From: Nitrosarchaeum sp. | GTDB lineage: Archaea; Thermoproteota; Nitrososphaeria; Nitrososphaerales; Nitrosopumilaceae | Assembly (NCBI GenBank): GCA_016844465.1 | Contig: JAERMO010000004.1 | Span: 18,619-57,586, forward strand | Length of the DNA stretch: 38,968 nt | Direction of reading: 5' to 3' | Part shown: positions 3 to 38,968 of the stretch, in pieces | Layout of the letters: each line of letters begins with the position of its first letter | Numbering within the stretch: position 1 is the first letter of the stretch | Notes under the pieces: generated by a model | What the model was told of the DNA's origin: nothing | The model's input: only the letters and a program-made list of their open reading frames with translations | The model's database searches: none | Made by a program: the position numbers and the translations under genes

Positions 3-479
3 AAAGCAAAATTAAGAATGATCACAGGCAATAGATTCAAAATATCAGATCTTAGTGTACTTACAAAACTTTTTTCAGAAAGATACACTAAACGCTTTGA
101 TGTAAAACTAATCAGAGACAGTAAAATTAAGAAACTGCAAGATTTTATTAATAATGGTCAAATTGAATTAAAAATCGCAATTACAAATTCGGAGGAAATC
201 ACTAATTTATTCTCGGAGAGAATTGGGATATTTAAAGATGAAAATGATGACGCTGTTGCTTTTACTGGAACATCATCATCGCTCTCAACTAATACGCGAG
301 ACTTTGAATCAGTTGATGTTTTCACATCATGGAATGACAAGTCAAGAGTTGAAAGAAAAATAAGAGATTTTGATGATTTGTGGAAAAATAAAACAAAATA
401 TGTCGAAGTATATGATTTTATGGAAGCAGAAAAAAATAATCTGTTAAAATATTCATCAGAGTGGATTTACAACATCTAA
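3..479 (+). CDS. PLD-like nuclease domain of a DEAD/DEAH-type helicase, partial at the left edge and lacking its helicase part
   Basis: The reading frame is open to the window edge (K-A-K-L-R before the first ATG at 18), so the true start lies upstream. The pattern GIFKDENDDAVAFTGTSSS followed by RDFESVDVFTSW and FDDLWKNKTKYVEVYDF is characteristic of the N-terminal PLD-like domain carried by many helicases of restriction and defence loci. The family normally has H-x-K before GIF; here it reads S-E-R, so the HKD-type site looks degenerate. Relatives continue into a RecA-like helicase after the 'VYDF' segment, but this one stops about 22 residues later, overlapping endA by 4 nt. I infer a remnant of a defence helicase. 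A stand-alone domain protein is the alternative. Confidence 0.6.
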   Translation, partial: KAKLRMITGNRFKISDLSVLTKLFSERYTKRFDVKLIRDSKIKKLQDFINNGQIELKIAITNSEEITNLFSERIGIFKDENDDAVAFTGTSSSLSTNTRDFESVDVFTSWNDKSRVERKIRDFDDLWKNKTKYVEVYDFMEAEKNNLLKYSSEWIYNI

Positions 480-17814: not shown

Positions 17815-18765
17815 TCATTTTTGTTCAAAAATCTTTATTGCTTGTGGCGGACAAACGCCTTCGCAAGCAAGACAAAATATGCAATCGGGCTCTTTTGACA
17901 TTAAGGGTTTTTTCCCAGATGCCGGATTTCCAGGAGTATCAAACCATTCGTAAACTCCAACTGGACATGCTTCAATACATCCACCATCTGCAATACAAAT
18001 ATCATAATCAACAGATACAAATTCGCCCCATACGCCAAGGATTCCATTATTGGCGCCTTTTCTACCCCAAGTCTTGATTGTATACCCATTTGCATCAAAT
18101 GGAACAGATAGTTTCATTTTAGATTTGTAGGCTACATCAATTGGACCAGGTTTTGCCCCATCGGGAATTTCAAATTCTCCACCTTCGTCTTCGGCAATTT
18201 CATCAGCCCCAGCTTCAATTGGTTTTGGTTTGGCATTAAGAACAATTTTTGCGAGGGGTGTAAGTTCTTCTAGTCTCTGTATTGCTTCGTATTGATTGAG
18301 TTTCTCTGCTTTTGCAAGATAAGAAATCATTTTGTCTGCTAAGATAGTATTACGTAAAATAGTATCAATAACCATTTTTGCAAAATGATCTGCTTTTTTT
18401 CGATAATCTTTAACCCAATTTGGATCGCCAAATTTTTCAATTGGAAAAATTTGATAAATAATATCAACTACTTCACCGCTAACAATTTCGACTGTGACCG
18501 ATAACTTTACTTCTTCATATCCTTTGGCATCTGGATTTTTCATATTCTGTTCTTTCCACCTATATGTTGCAAAGATTCGATCAGCATAAGCATCCATTTC
18601 AAATGCCTTTTTCAAACCATCATGTACGGATTTAATTTCTAAAGGATCTTCAAGTTTTATTGGCAATCTATAAAGTCCAAGTTTGAATCCATGTAGAGGA
18701 TACACACCCCGTTTTGCAGTTGGCGCCTCCATTGTCCAGACTCGATCTTTTAGAAGTAATGACAT
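17815..18765 (-). CDS. Sulfolobus-type 7Fe ferredoxin with a large N-terminal domain
   Basis: 316 residues. The last 65 form a ferredoxin: CIADGGCIEACP (Cys257, 263, 267, with Asp260 in place of a Cys) and CIFCLACEGVCP (Cys295, 298, 301, 305). This is the [3Fe-4S][4Fe-4S] pattern of Sulfolobus ferredoxin. The preceding YTIKTWGRKGANNGILGVWG also resembles its N-terminal extension, which holds zinc in Sulfolobus. Residues 1-210 are an extra domain I do not recognise. Probable role: electron carrier for KorAB-type enzymes and the ETF, soluble in the cytosol. Confidence 0.88.
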   Translation of the reverse strand: MSLLLKDRVWTMEAPTAKRGVYPLHGFKLGLYRLPIKLEDPLEIKSVHDGLKKAFEMDAYADRIFATYRWKEQNMKNPDAKGYEEVKLSVTVEIVSGEVVDIIYQIFPIEKFGDPNWVKDYRKKADHFAKMVIDTILRNTILADKMISYLAKAEKLNQYEAIQRLEELTPLAKIVLNAKPKPIEAGADEIAEDEGGEFEIPDGAKPGPIDVAYKSKMKLSVPFDANGYTIKTWGRKGANNGILGVWGEFVSVDYDICIADGGCIEACPVGVYEWFDTPGNPASGKKPLMSKEPDCIFCLACEGVCPPQAIKIFEQK

Positions 18766-21156: not shown

Positions 21157-21652
21157 AATATTAGATGCGAGTGCATTTTATGCAGGAGTCCCGTTTGGAT
21201 CATCTGATGATTGTTATACAACATCTCTTGTTTATGAGGAGATAAAACACATTAAAAAAAATCATGATGCACTAGGAACATTGTTGGAAACTAATAGGTT
21301 AAAAATAATGGATCCAGACAAGGAGTCAACAGATAGGGCAATAATTTCAGCCAAAGAAACAGGTGATTTTCAACAATTATCAAAGCAAGATATTTCCATA
21401 ATTGCATTATGCATCAATCTTAATGGTGAGATTATTTCAGATGATTTTGCAATTACAAATGTTTCAAAAAATCTAGGATTGAAGATATCACCAATCATGA
21501 CTAACAATTTTCAAGATGTTGGAAAATGGGTTCATTATTGTCCCGGCTGTCGTACAAATCATACAACTGGGAAAGAGTGTCCAATGTGTGGTACCCTGCT
21601 TAAGAGAAAATTACTCAAGGGACAATCGTCTACCATACCAATCAACAAATGA
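21146..21652 (+). CDS. nob1: Nob1, rRNA maturation endonuclease (PIN domain plus zinc ribbon)
   Basis: 168 residues. The PIN domain begins ILDASAFY with catalytic Asp7; further acidic positions include Asp82 (KQDISIIALC) and Asp99-100 (EIISDDFAIT). The C-terminal zinc ribbon has Cys132, 135, 145 and 148 (YCPGCRTNHTTGKECPMCG). Nob1 cleaves the 3' end of pre-16S rRNA. Its start is TTG inside the end of nadK (11-nt overlap). The 3' end overlaps the interrupted rhodanese on the other strand by 42 nt, the longest such overlap here. It ends in TGA, so TGA is a normal stop in this genome. Confidence 0.92.
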   Translation: MDFRILDASAFYAGVPFGSSDDCYTTSLVYEEIKHIKKNHDALGTLLETNRLKIMDPDKESTDRAIISAKETGDFQQLSKQDISIIALCINLNGEIISDDFAITNVSKNLGLKISPIMTNNFQDVGKWVHYCPGCRTNHTTGKECPMCGTLLKRKLLKGQSSTIPINK

Positions 21653-22372
21653 TCCATCATACAATTTCACATCACGGTAACCTGCAATCATTAGTTGTAA
21701 AAATAAGCTAGATGCCCTATGGCCATGCATGCAATAACAAACAATTTGATCATCTTTAGATATTTTATTTTGAGAAAATAAATTTTGTAAAAAGATTTTG
21801 TTTTGAAACAATTTTCCATCATATCCTATTCCTTCAGTAAATGGAATTAGTTTGGAATTAGGTAAATGTCCACCCATAAATTCTTGAGGTGTCCGTGCAT
21901 CTAAAATAATAAAATTATTTAAATTTTCTTTAAGATGAACAGCTTCTATTCGAATCATTGAGTTGATTTTTGGAATAAACTTTGTTGTTTTAGGAATGAA
22001 TGATTTTTTCGTTAATTCAAAACCATTATTTTGCAAATCGATTATACTTGCATCAAGTAGATGTATTTTATCGTGTCCAAAGTACAAAAAAGTTCAAGCA
22101 ATCCTAGCAGCTGATGGATCCATAGAATCTCCGACAATAATGACAGTTTTAGAATCATCGATTCCAATTGAACTAAAAAGTTCAGTAATTTTTTCTGGAT
22201 CAATAACTAAATTTGAACCGTATTGATCAAATTGAATAACTTGTTCTATTGTTAGTGATTGAGATTTTGTTAAATGACCATAGAGAAATAATGTTTTAGG
22301 ACGTGTGTCCAAAATAATAATATCCTGATCAGAAAAATGATCTTTTAGCCAATCTATTGAAACTAACATCAA
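21611..22372 (-). pseudogene. Two-domain rhodanese interrupted by an in-frame TGA at a Trp position
   Basis: The track splits it into 92 and 158 residues, but both are in one frame: PSAARIA, then TGA at 22094-22096, then TFLYFGHDKIHLLDAS. Rhodaneses carry Trp in that place (RIAW.FLYFGH), so one G-to-A change explains the stop. The distal half keeps an intact active loop, CYCMHGHRASS, and family features such as LDARTPQEFMGGHLPNSK. The restored length is about 253 residues. Restart at the TTG (Leu-Tyr-Phe-Gly-His) could give a catalytic single-domain protein. It is last in the sbds operon, 31 nt after xpf. The second rhodanese at 19.1 kb may make it dispensable. Confidence 0.82.
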
Positions 22373-23577: not shown

Positions 23578-23823
23578 TTATATCTTTACCGATTCAATTG
23601 AGTCGTAACTTGCCTGAATTAATCTCAAAGTTGAATTAAGATTTGCTCGTAAGTGTTGAATATGTTCTGAATCTATTGAGATGTGGATTTTATCATTTAA
23701 TGAAATAGTGGTTTTGGTAGGGTTTTCTGGATAAAATTGATTATCAATGTGGATTGAATCAAATATTGCTTTTGTCTTTTCTTTAGCATCAACATTAATT
23801 TTAGCATTAAAGATTAATGTCAT
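23578..23823 (-). CDS. pcc1: KEOPS complex subunit Pcc1
   Basis: The track begins at 23904, but the first 27 residues are an extension inside rpl37ae. ATG 23823 (MTLIFNAKINVDAKEK) gives an 81-residue protein, the normal Pcc1 size, with KIHISIDSEHIQHLRANLNS followed by TLRLIQASYDSI, the helix used for dimerisation and Kae1 binding. KEOPS makes the t6A modification of ANN-decoding tRNAs. It overlaps rpl37ae by 17 nt and precedes pfdB, a common archaeal order. Confidence 0.85.
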   Translation of the reverse strand: MTLIFNAKINVDAKEKTKAIFDSIHIDNQFYPENPTKTTISLNDKIHISIDSEHIQHLRANLNSTLRLIQASYDSIESVKI

Positions 23824-24013
23824 ACGCGGTTCCAGCAATCTTGAAACTACATTTCTTACAAGACCAAATGCCAACTGCATCTCTACTAAATTGTTTTGAA
23901 CCACATTCAGGACAAGATCTTTCTGCTTTTAGTTGAAAGTGAATTTTGGCATATTGTTTTCTGATTTTAATACCATATCGTGCGCCTAACCCTTTTAGGG
24001 ATTTCTTTGCCAT
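23807..24013 (-). CDS. rpl37ae: Ribosomal protein L37ae (eL43)
   Basis: 68 residues: MAKKSLKGLGARYGIKIRKQ, then the zinc ribbon CPECGSKQFSRDAVGIWSCK-KC, with four zinc-binding Cys. Typical size is 70-90, so this is a short but complete form. Its ATG follows, by one base, the TAA that ends the displaced rrp42 tail, showing that rrp42 originally ran right up to this gene. The spacer of 85 nt to the present rrp42 stop is therefore old coding sequence. Confidence 0.93.
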   Translation of the reverse strand: MAKKSLKGLGARYGIKIRKQYAKIHFQLKAERSCPECGSKQFSRDAVGIWSCKKCSFKIAGTAYDINL

Positions 24014-24014
24014 T

Positions 24015-24098
24015 TTATTTTCTTGCTCCCATTACTTGTTTTAACTTTTCTCTTATTTTTGCTCCTACCTTAACAGATGTTTTTCAACATTGTATAAC
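24015..24098 (-). other. Displaced C-terminal coding tail of rrp42 behind two in-frame stops
   Basis: In the same frame as rrp42, after its TAA at 24099-24101, the codons read VIQC, TGA, KTSVKVGAKIREKLKQVMG-ARK and TAA. Aligned from memory with Sulfolobus Rrp42, whose chain continues about 28 residues beyond the same Gly-rich segment (a helix ending in EELKKHLG), this tail matches in length and character. It therefore encodes the missing last helix. Confidence 0.75.
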
Positions 24099-24833
24099 TT
24101 AGTCAAATGTAAATCCTCCGTTTCCTCCTTTTTGTAAAGCGCAAATATTTCCATTAGAATCAGTAGTAATTGTAATTCTTGCCTCCATACTATCCCACTC
24201 ATCACCATTTGGATCAACAATTATATGATTTCCAATTTTGCCCATAGTGACAGAGACTGGAATAGTGGTGATTGGAATATCCAACTCTACGCCTTCAATT
24301 AAAGTTGGTACATCATTTTTCATTTCCCATTTTGGGGTTTTAGAAGAAAGGATCGCAGCCGTTGCAGCATAAGCACATGTATCAAACAGGTTACCATCAT
24401 AATCAACTACAACATTATCAGCAAAAACTCCAACAACTGATTTATTTTTTTCAATTACCAATTGAGACAAATCGATCATGTGACTTTCTCTAATGCCTCT
24501 GTCAACCACTCTTGCCAATTCAATAACATCTGGGCCAGGAGGTCCTGTTTCAACACTAGGGTGTGAAAATGGTAAAAGTTCAGCTGTGCAGATGAAAATA
24601 CCCTTGTCACCCATATCTGGAAAAGGTCTATCTGGTTGAATTTTAATGCCACAAATTACTTCGCTATCACCCAATCTTACTCGTGCAGAACCATTTGCTT
24701 TTGGAATTGCATTTGGTTCAATTACTAATTTTCGAGGTTCATCAAATGCCCTTCCATCAACTCTTTTTCCTTGTTCTAATAATTCAAGGATTTGAGATTT
24801 TTTTAGTTCATCAATTACAGATGTAGTTGCCAT
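24099..24833 (-). CDS. rrp42: Exosome subunit Rrp42, lacking its C-terminal helix
   Basis: The 244 residues follow the RNase PH fold of Rrp42: GKRVDGRAFDEPRKLVIEPN, NGSARVRLGDSEVICGIK, PFSHPSVETGPPGPDVIELA-RVVDRGIRES, VVVDYDGNLFDTCAYAA. Rrp42 has no catalytic site of its own but pairs with Rrp41 to form the hexameric ring. It ends at FTFD followed by TAA. About 28 residues expected at the C-terminus lie beyond, in frame (see the adjacent entry). The start follows rrp41's stop directly. The lost helix packs on the ring surface in known structures, so truncation could be tolerated. Confidence 0.92.
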   Translation of the reverse strand: MATTSVIDELKKSQILELLEQGKRVDGRAFDEPRKLVIEPNAIPKANGSARVRLGDSEVICGIKIQPDRPFPDMGDKGIFICTAELLPFSHPSVETGPPGPDVIELARVVDRGIRESHMIDLSQLVIEKNKSVVGVFADNVVVDYDGNLFDTCAYAATAAILSSKTPKWEMKNDVPTLIEGVELDIPITTIPVSVTMGKIGNHIIVDPNGDEWDSMEARITITTDSNGNICALQKGGNGGFTFD

Positions 24834-33500: not shown

Positions 33501-34268
33501 GTGCCTCTAACCGTATTACCCCTATTTTCAGAAAGAAAAAGAGAGCGATTCGATATCTTTGAGGCATTGACAGAGACGTTAGATAAAAACAATGAAAGGT
33601 TACAAGAGGGAGACGTCATAGTAATATCAACAAAATACATCTCCAATGCTCAAGGAAGGATAATTGATCTAAATAATGTCAAGGCATCAATAAAAGGAAT
33701 AGATATTTCTAAGAAATTTCAAATAAAAGCTGAAATTGCAGAAATAATTTTAAGAGAATCAGACAAAATTTTTGGTGGGATTTCAGGTTTTGTTATTACT
33801 TCAGCAGACAACATAATGGCTCCGAATGCAGGAATTGATAAATCAAATGTTAAAAAAGGAAAAATAGTTCTTTATCCAAAGGATCCATATCTTATTGCAG
33901 AACAAATTAGGAGGAAAATATTTTTAAAATTCTTAATACACATAGGAGTTATTTTGGTGGATAGTAGATTGATGCCAGTTCGTATTGGAACATCAGGGGT
34001 GGCAATTTCATGTGCAGGAATTGAGCCAGTATTAGATATGAGGTCTGAAAAAGATCTTGACGGAAATCCATTGAAAGTAACTTTTCAAGCAGTAGTGGAC
34101 AATCTTGCAACAATTGCAAATCACAAAATGGGTGAGGGTGCAGAATCCAAACCGTTTGCAATTATTAGAGATTCAGGAGCAAAGTTGACAGACAGAAAAA
34201 TTAATCCAAAAGAGACAGCAATATCTCCAGACCAGTGCGTATATGTTAGAGGTCTAACAAATCCATAG
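33501..34268 (+). CDS. cofE: Coenzyme F420-0:L-glutamate ligase
   Basis: 255 residues with a GTG start. GDVIVISTKYISNAQGRIID, SGFVITSADNIMAPNAGIDK, LYPKDPYLIAEQIRRKI and VILVDSRLMPVRIGTSGVAI, followed by RDSGAKLT, are the GTP- and metal-binding segments of CofE. It adds gamma-linked glutamates to F420-0. Ammonia-oxidising archaea are known to carry F420 genes. No other cof gene lies in the window. No Shine-Dalgarno is clear before the GTG. Confidence 0.92.
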   Translation: MPLTVLPLFSERKRERFDIFEALTETLDKNNERLQEGDVIVISTKYISNAQGRIIDLNNVKASIKGIDISKKFQIKAEIAEIILRESDKIFGGISGFVITSADNIMAPNAGIDKSNVKKGKIVLYPKDPYLIAEQIRRKIFLKFLIHIGVILVDSRLMPVRIGTSGVAISCAGIEPVLDMRSEKDLDGNPLKVTFQAVVDNLATIANHKMGEGAESKPFAIIRDSGAKLTDRKINPKETAISPDQCVYVRGLTNP

Positions 34269-36349: not shown

Positions 36350-37312
36350 CTAAATTCTGAGAGAATCAAGTATTTCTGAAACATCAGTAACAGGTAATCC
36401 GTTTTCAGAAATTTTTTGTTTTGCGGGAGGATTTTCAAGGTAATTGGGAATTCTGTCAGTTAGTCTAGCGGAATATTGAGAGATTATTTCATTTTGATAA
36501 AACACACCTATAGGAATTTTTTGTCCCCATTCTAGGGATTTAATCAAAGCTTGAGACAATTTTTCATTAACTTCTGACTCATCATCATAATGTACCATAG
36601 GGTCAAAATGCATATCTTCAAGTTTATAGATTCTAGAGTGTCTTTCCATAGATTCTTGCGCTAAATCTACTCCAGCATACCAATCTCTTGTATTGATATC
36701 ATTGTAAGTTGGACATGGTTGTAACACATCAAGGAAAGAAAGACCTTTGTGACGAACAGCTTTGATGATCAGATCTTTCAGATGTCGAACATCATAAGAA
36801 TAGCCCCGCGCTACAAATGTAAACCCACTGGCTACTGCCAATCCAATAGGATTTACGTTATAGTTGGTGTTTGGAGATGGAAGTGATTTTGTTTTCTCAC
36901 CGAGCCTTAAGGTTGGGGAAGCTTGCCCTTTAGTTAAACCATATACACCGTTATCAAATATTATGTAGGTCATGTCGATATTGCGTCTTCCAGCTGCAAC
37001 AAAATGGCCAGCTCCTATTCCTAATCCGTCGCCATCACCACCAACTGCTACAACGGTCATCTCAGGATTTGCAAGTTTTCCACCTTGGGCAAAAGTCAAA
37101 ACTCTTCCATGTAAGGTATGAACACCATATGTGTTGATAAAGTGAGACGTCTTTCCAGAACAACCTATACCAGAAAAAATTGTTGCCTTATCCCGTTCTA
37201 TTCCCATTTCCGCCAATGCCATTTGTAATGCATTAACTATTCCAAAATCCCCACAACCAGGACACCAATCATTGTGCACTTCAGTTTTGTAATCAGCTAG
37301 TTTAAGCGCCAT
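36350..37312 (-). CDS. korB: 2-oxoacid:ferredoxin oxidoreductase beta subunit
   Basis: 320 residues. [20 protein letters not shown] and [12 protein letters not shown] supply Cys of the single [4Fe-4S] cluster. [20 protein letters not shown] with the following [12 protein letters not shown] is the thiamine-diphosphate/Mg motif (GDG...N-x-x-Y). It oxidises 2-oxoacids such as 2-oxoglutarate or pyruvate to acyl-CoA, reducing ferredoxin, or works in reverse for carbon fixation. It overlaps the korA 3' end by 11 nt. Confidence 0.94.
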
Positions 37313-38968
37313 GACTTAGAACCTCCCTTTTGTTTGCTTTATTTTCAACTATCTTTTTTAATGAATCATAAATTTCTGTGCTTGTCATTCCTCTTCCGGT
37401 ATATTTTAGTATAAAATAATCAATTTCTCGAGAGATGTTTTGCTTGAAAATCTTGCCTAACTGACCTGAATGATTTGCTTCAATGTCAATGATAATTTTT
37501 GTATTTTTTAAAAGAGATTTGACATAATCAGATGGGAAAGGATGAATTAATTTAATTTGAATAAATCCAACATTAATTCCCTCTTTTTTAAGCATGGAAA
37601 TAGCATCCAAAATTGGACCCTTGGTAGAACCCCAAGAAATTATAGTGTAATCATGGACACCAAATGAAACAACCTGTTCATCATCAGGTATTCTTTTTAT
37701 CACCAAGTCTAGTCTGGACATTCTTTTATCCATCATTTTGATGCGAATCTGAGGATCTTCTGTAATATGACCAAATTCATCGGATTCATCTCCAGTATTC
37801 CAAAAAATACCATTATCCAATCCTAATCTAGAACGTGGGGAAATTCCATCATCAGTAAAAGCAAACCGCTTGTATTCCCCATCTACTTTATCTAACAATA
37901 GACCTCTATCAATAGAAATCTTTTGAGGATCAAATGATAAACATCTGCATAATTAAAACATCTTCCAGTGTCATAGAAACTTTCTTCAATATCACCAGAG
38001 GCATAAACAATTTTTGGAAAATCACCATGTCCAGCATGTACTGCAAAGAGCAAGTCATCTTGTCCATGCCTTGTAGGAAGACCTGTTGAAGGACCACTTC
38101 TTTGATACAAAGTAATTACAATTGGAACTTCGTTAATTCCAGCCCAACCAAGTGCTTCAGTCATTAATGCAAATCCAGGTCCAGAAGTAGATGTGGAAGA
38201 ACGCGTGCCAGTTAATGCAGCGCCAATCATCATGCCCATTGCAGATATTTCATCTTCAGTTTGAATCACAATAGTTGAACCAGGTCTATCATTTTGAATT
38301 TCTAAAAGTTCATTGGATTCAAGATAGACGCTTTCATCAGAAGCAGGAGTAATAGGATAGTATGACTGAAATCTACAACCACTGACCATTTTTCCTATCG
38401 AAGTTCCAAAATGACCTTGGACAAGAATAGTATCAGGTTGTTTAGTAGTACCAGTTAAAGCATATGAAAAATTATCAAATTTTGATTTAGCGTAATCATA
38501 TGCAAAATTTGCTGCTTGTTTATTAATTTCTGCTATCTGAGGTTTTTTTGAAAATATAGAATCAATGGATTGAAGTAAAGGATCAAGTGGCATTTTGACT
38601 AGCCCTAACGATAAAGAAACCGCAAGTACATTAAACAATCTAACTAATCCTTTTAGTTTCGGATTTTCTGTCTCTTCAGCAAGATTTGACAATATTTCTC
38701 GAAAAGACACAGGGTAAAGATTAACACCTTTCTCTTTTGCAATCTCAAGAACTCCTGTAATTGTAAAAGGTTTGTTTTTAGATTCTAATTCTTTGTGTAA
38801 TCTTGCTTTAAAATAATTATCAAGTGTAAGTACTTCATCAGTGGTTGTTTTATCCAAATCAGAATCATATATTATTCCACCATCTTTAGGAACTTCATTA
38901 AAATGTCTGAAAATTGTTTCAGCATCAAAAGAAGCCATTAAAGTAACATCATTTACATTTGAATGAAT
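37302..38968 (-). pseudogene. korA: 2-oxoacid:ferredoxin oxidoreductase alpha (gamma-alpha fusion), frameshifted and open at the right edge
   Basis: The track shows two ORFs (37892-38938 and 37302-37898) that belong to one protein. The first frame stays open past its ATG to the window edge (IHSNVNDVTL-MASFDAE), so the start and part of the gamma domain are outside. It has the pyrimidine-binding segment FQSYYPITPASDESVYLESN and GTRSSTSTSGPGFALMTEAL. After YADVYHL the frame jumps: the next frame reads DPQKISIDRGLLLDKVDGEY on to HGA. In relatives about 20 residues lie between these two pieces. An internal deletion of 3n+1 nt, with TTTG/TTG microhomology at the join, explains both loss and frameshift. 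korB is intact. Confidence 0.85.

Follow-up and report, generated by a model that had tools for sequence, protein, structure and literature searches.

Does the exosome subunit Rrp42 of this Nitrosarchaeum strain end one helix short of its orthologues, or have two stop codons entered an intact gene in the course of sequencing and assembly? The window, by which we mean the whole stretch of 38,968 nucleotides that was analysed, presents the locus as follows:

24099..24833, minus strand: rrp42 reading frame, 244 codons plus TAA, whose best match, below the model's cut-off, is the NCBIfam exosome complex protein Rrp42
24101-24099, minus strand: first in-frame stop, TAA (GAA, Glu, in the nearest relative, G012)
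24086-24084, minus strand: second in-frame stop, TGA (GGA, Gly250, in G012)
24015..24098, minus strand: what is left of the Rrp42 C-terminus (last helix), in unchanged frame, with its closing TAA at 24017-24015
23807..24013, minus strand: rpl37ae, the next gene downstream, whose ATG at 24013 lies one base past the final TAA of the tail

The letters are as a preliminary description of this DNA had given them: upon translation, the minus strand from 24131 to 24015 reads KGGNGGFTFD, a TAA stop, VIQC, a TGA stop, KTSVKVGAKIREKLKQVMGARK and a last TAA one base before rpl37ae. Both alternative frames are closed across the tail stretch and no indel separates it from the nearest relative, which removes a single frameshift slip as the origin of both stops.

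The printed frame lacks a complete RNase_PH_C domain and the C-terminal helix, yet the gene is an rrp42 orthologue. It adjoins rrp41 and rrp4 in the usual archaeal cluster rrp4-rrp41-rrp42-rpl37ae (the identity of rrp4 in the window was assigned from its open reading frame and position), and in this gene order it agrees with archaeal Rrp42, a protein of the RNase PH fold; its product is 84-95% identical to the orthologues of the genus. The best model is that of NCBIfam for Rrp42 (NF003282; 6e-79, 264.8 bits against a cut-off of 280), the profile being covered only to position 242 of 267 by the window form. RNase_PH_C breaks off at profile position 53 of 67, compared with 66 of 67 in an intact relative, and the C-terminal helix sits past the first TAA. 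Where the window departs from archaeal Rrp42 is in a frame broken twice within the last 28 codons, whereas the other complete copies listed are open. No second rrp42 copy was found in the assembly.

The preliminary description had taken the tail for the last, barely eroded helix of Rrp42 and had predicted a form of about 270 residues in close relatives, and the comparisons bear it out on both counts. The tail aligns residue for residue with the Rrp42 C-terminus of same-genus genomes and of about 80 public loci, and solved archaeal Rrp42 chains, for instance 8xie and 2ba0, match it as well; as judged from these alignments, it is homologous to the true C-terminal helix and not a chance translation. 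The structure model of an intact relative places a terminal helix at residues 243-269 with low confidence (mean pLDDT 44.6) and would thus lend weak support to such a helix. All 18 genomes of the genus, that of the window included, carry rrp42; of the 17 besides the window's own, 16 have a complete gene, each with an open frame of about 270-272 residues, and in the last only residues 1-115 are present, at a contig end. The public loci examined likewise carry an intact Rrp42, and the relatives compared retain the tail throughout, none of them ending at FTFD. Gly250, the site of the second stop, is invariant in alignment A2, and the first base of its codon is common to 82 of 83 other loci. Beyond the two stops, the 28-codon tail differs from that of G012 by four amino-acid and two silent changes, is free of indels and keeps the conserved SVKVG-x-KIREKLKQ core. 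Since the tail has suffered neither frameshift nor decay, the stops, if real, would have to be extremely recent.

What separates the window from its relatives is slight at the level of the bases. The window's GAC-TAA-...-TGT-TGA corresponds to GAC-GAA-GTT-ATA-CAA-TGT-GGA in G012, which is 95% identical, and L032 (JAEMQG010000115.1) is the same sequence as G012 here. Both stops are single substitutions (GAA to TAA and GGA to TGA) lying 15 nt apart, and each replaces a coding-strand G by T (C by A on the window strand). Around rrp42, about 25 kb are otherwise clean and evenly related to G012 (about 95% identity). Near rrp42, the window genome has only six unique changes at otherwise invariant sites (the relative has two), which argues for a low background error rate. 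Two broader interpretations of the substitutions were tried and rejected. Relaxed selection on the tail was suggested by a nonsynonymous excess over the body of the gene (6:2 vs 7:22, p 0.013), which loses significance when the stops are excluded (p 0.06) and which counts one change that is derived in the relative and not in the window. A global oxidative-damage signature was set aside as there is no excess in the raw differences and only a modest one after polarisation: when every difference from G012 is counted across the genome, G>T or C>A changes show no excess over their reciprocals (135 vs 119), polarised coding-strand G>T is modestly raised (15 vs 4, Fisher p about 0.01), and the same count over all shared genes gives 34 vs 20 (p 0.10).

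Whether such stops occur elsewhere in the assembly was judged from a survey in which the proteins of the complete same-genus genome G001 were compared with about 354 kb (about 23%) of the window's assembly, covering 263 genes and 68,193 aligned residues, with hits at gene ends, alternative starts and gapped alignments left out. Five mid-gene stops were found in four genes, rrp42 holding two of them, and another falls within the window:

21611..22372, minus strand: rhodanese-type (two-domain) sulfurtransferase, with TGG (Trp92) changed to TGA near 22096-22094

In the 24 other sequences compared, the codon base concerned does not vary. The remaining stops are a TAA in a T2SS-F-type membrane protein, at a Glu codon of G001, and an in-frame TGA in seryl-tRNA synthetase, at a Gly codon of G001 (G000 contig C25, L188, at about 403). 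Seryl-tRNA synthetase is indispensable; the interrupted gene begins at a contig end, is the sole copy found in the assembly, and is intact in the same-genus genomes that hold this part of it. A coding-strand G to T change fits four of the five stops, the original codon in the T2SS-F-type and seryl-tRNA synthetase genes being deduced from the G001 residue (the G012 contigs compared miss both sites). Given the lineage's own polarised substitution spectrum, in which G>T is expected to make up about 9% of stop-making changes, the binomial probability of four in five is 2.6e-4, or 2.4e-3 for three in four if the rrp42 pair is one event, and with equal rates for all changes the enrichment stands at 0.008, or 0.03 with the pair counted once; drawn from just five stops, these statistics are suggestive only.

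Ten further genes of the same 354 kb are split when aligned to the complete genome, among them those for SecY, TrpRS (tryptophanyl-tRNA synthetase), LeuA, RlmN, HMG-CoA synthase and the alpha subunit of 2-oxoacid:ferredoxin oxidoreductase. The splits comprise deletions of 65, 61, 46, 32, 17 and 1 nt, insertions of 31 and 32 nt, and two genes with several gaps, 61 and 62 nt among them; runs of N lie at two of the breaks. The last-named gene lies in the window:

37302..38968, minus strand: 2-oxoacid:ferredoxin oxidoreductase alpha subunit, with a 61-nt deletion at about 37913-37952

Where the deletion lies, identity to G012 goes down from 94.7% to 89.2%, a coincidence which suggests a join between different strains, and the break is a probable mis-join at the contig end. 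At the other end, just before window position 1, contig C159 carries six N at 18613-18618 and misses 17 nt; the gene split by this gap continues into the window at 3..479.

Against this background, the contention of the preliminary description that two independent stops make a sequencing slip less likely does not hold, because the two are of the same change type and close together, and because such stops occur elsewhere in the assembly, where a G to T change would account for two other mid-gene stops, one of them in an indispensable gene, and where many genes are split by apparent mis-joins. As a control, the same neighbourhood was compared in 80 public loci, whose 134,105 aligned residues held a single internal stop, located near a C-terminus, along with three splits; in 21,175 residues of two better genomes neither occurred. 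Relative to the control loci, splits are clearly in excess in the window's assembly (p about 4e-4) and internal stops moderately so (p about 0.03). According to a published study, inflated numbers of internal stops flag poor assemblies, their source being low coverage or low read quality (PMC11017572). The present assembly resembles the spurious pseudogenes of that work in its surplus of internal stops and frame breaks, indispensable genes included, and differs from them in that the spurious status of its own broken genes is deduced from sequence comparison. As would be expected of an artefact, orthologues are intact in close relatives, no decay accompanies the stop changes, and breaks in indispensable genes exceed the rate in the comparison loci.

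Because the relatives are intact and essential genes are broken in this draft, the cut in rrp42 is most likely an error and not biology. We thus regard as the probable explanation of the double stop an artefact of base calling or assembly, a read that was damaged or came from a minority strain included. The letters are read correctly, but the double stop is most likely not a feature of the organism; the case would be an ordinary one, and the organism's rrp42 most likely encodes an ordinary exosome subunit of about 270 residues. Two nearby miscalls (G to T, or C to A on the window strand) may have arisen in a thinly covered stretch of the draft, with one poor, oxidised or minority-strain read as their putative source; we infer both that these particular bases are wrong and what physically caused the miscall. 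Error covers the intact tail, the uniqueness of the stops, the shared type of change and the broken essential genes. Counted against it are that two miscalls 15 nt apart are improbable unless errors cluster, that G to T is not globally in excess in the raw differences, that unique changes near rrp42 are few, and that the contrast with the comparison loci in internal stops is only moderate. Among the options named in the preliminary description, error is accordingly the leading one, with real truncation second and readthrough remote.

A real truncation would consist of a very recent nonsense allele, such that the strain makes a 244-residue Rrp42 devoid of its last helix, the first stop having been harmful or tolerated and the second neutral afterwards. 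It would suit this explanation that both stops are plain substitutions and that the 25 kb around them, about 95% identical to G012, are otherwise clean. In the archaeal exosome, the catalytic centre lies in aRrp41 and not in Rrp42 (PMC7667871), so that a shortened Rrp42 might be partly tolerated. The allele would nevertheless cost the protein the conserved Gly250 and the SVKVG-x-KIREKLK helix and would cut into RNase_PH_C; it would be unique among the matches listed from 250 family genomes, 228 of them with rrp42, where no other internal stop in the gene was seen; and it would have to be reconciled with an undecayed tail, with one rare type of change behind both stops and with an assembly that has stops in indispensable genes. 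We consider it unlikely, if the most serious of the alternatives, and that a living ammonia-oxidising archaeon survives a real, recent loss of the last helix of Rrp42 seems more doubtful still. Were it true, a core exosome subunit would tolerate the loss of its C-terminal helix, and the strain would offer a natural test of the need for that helix in the hexameric ring.

Within the artefact explanation itself, a mixed population forms a special case, in which an allele that is damaged or rare in the population entered the consensus although the gene is intact in most cells. Some contigs do look chimeric or unevenly related, at 89% as opposed to 95% identity to the same relative, and the 61-nt deletion coincides with such a drop; around rrp42, however, identity is even, and the missing second copy of the gene also speaks against a mixture, which we hold to account for a minor share of the case for artefact. 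Programmed readthrough or recoding of the UAA and UGA to yield a full-length protein was discarded as highly improbable for want of a conserved stop at the site in relatives: the conserved tail sequence is the sole point in its favour, two different stop codons would have had to replace unrelated sense codons (Glu and Gly), a stop at either site is found in no relative among the genus genomes, public loci and family matches listed, the relatives' tail is intact without any stop so that nothing conserved calls for readthrough, and TAA, TAG and TGA all terminate genes in the complete genome G001 (839, 372 and 343, respectively).

With a consensus error as the preferred explanation, the main import of the locus is one of caution. 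The draft holds spurious-looking stops and splits in essential genes, and apparent gene losses in it are therefore not to be read as biology without the reads. Frame breaks were also observed in rrp4, SBDS or rrp41-region genes of other draft genomes (L047, L042 and L033), where they are probably sequencing errors. In the G012 draft, codon 14 in the orthologue of the window's open reading frame at 33501..34268 is an in-frame TGA (L202, at about 5759), given which this draft may be error-bearing too.
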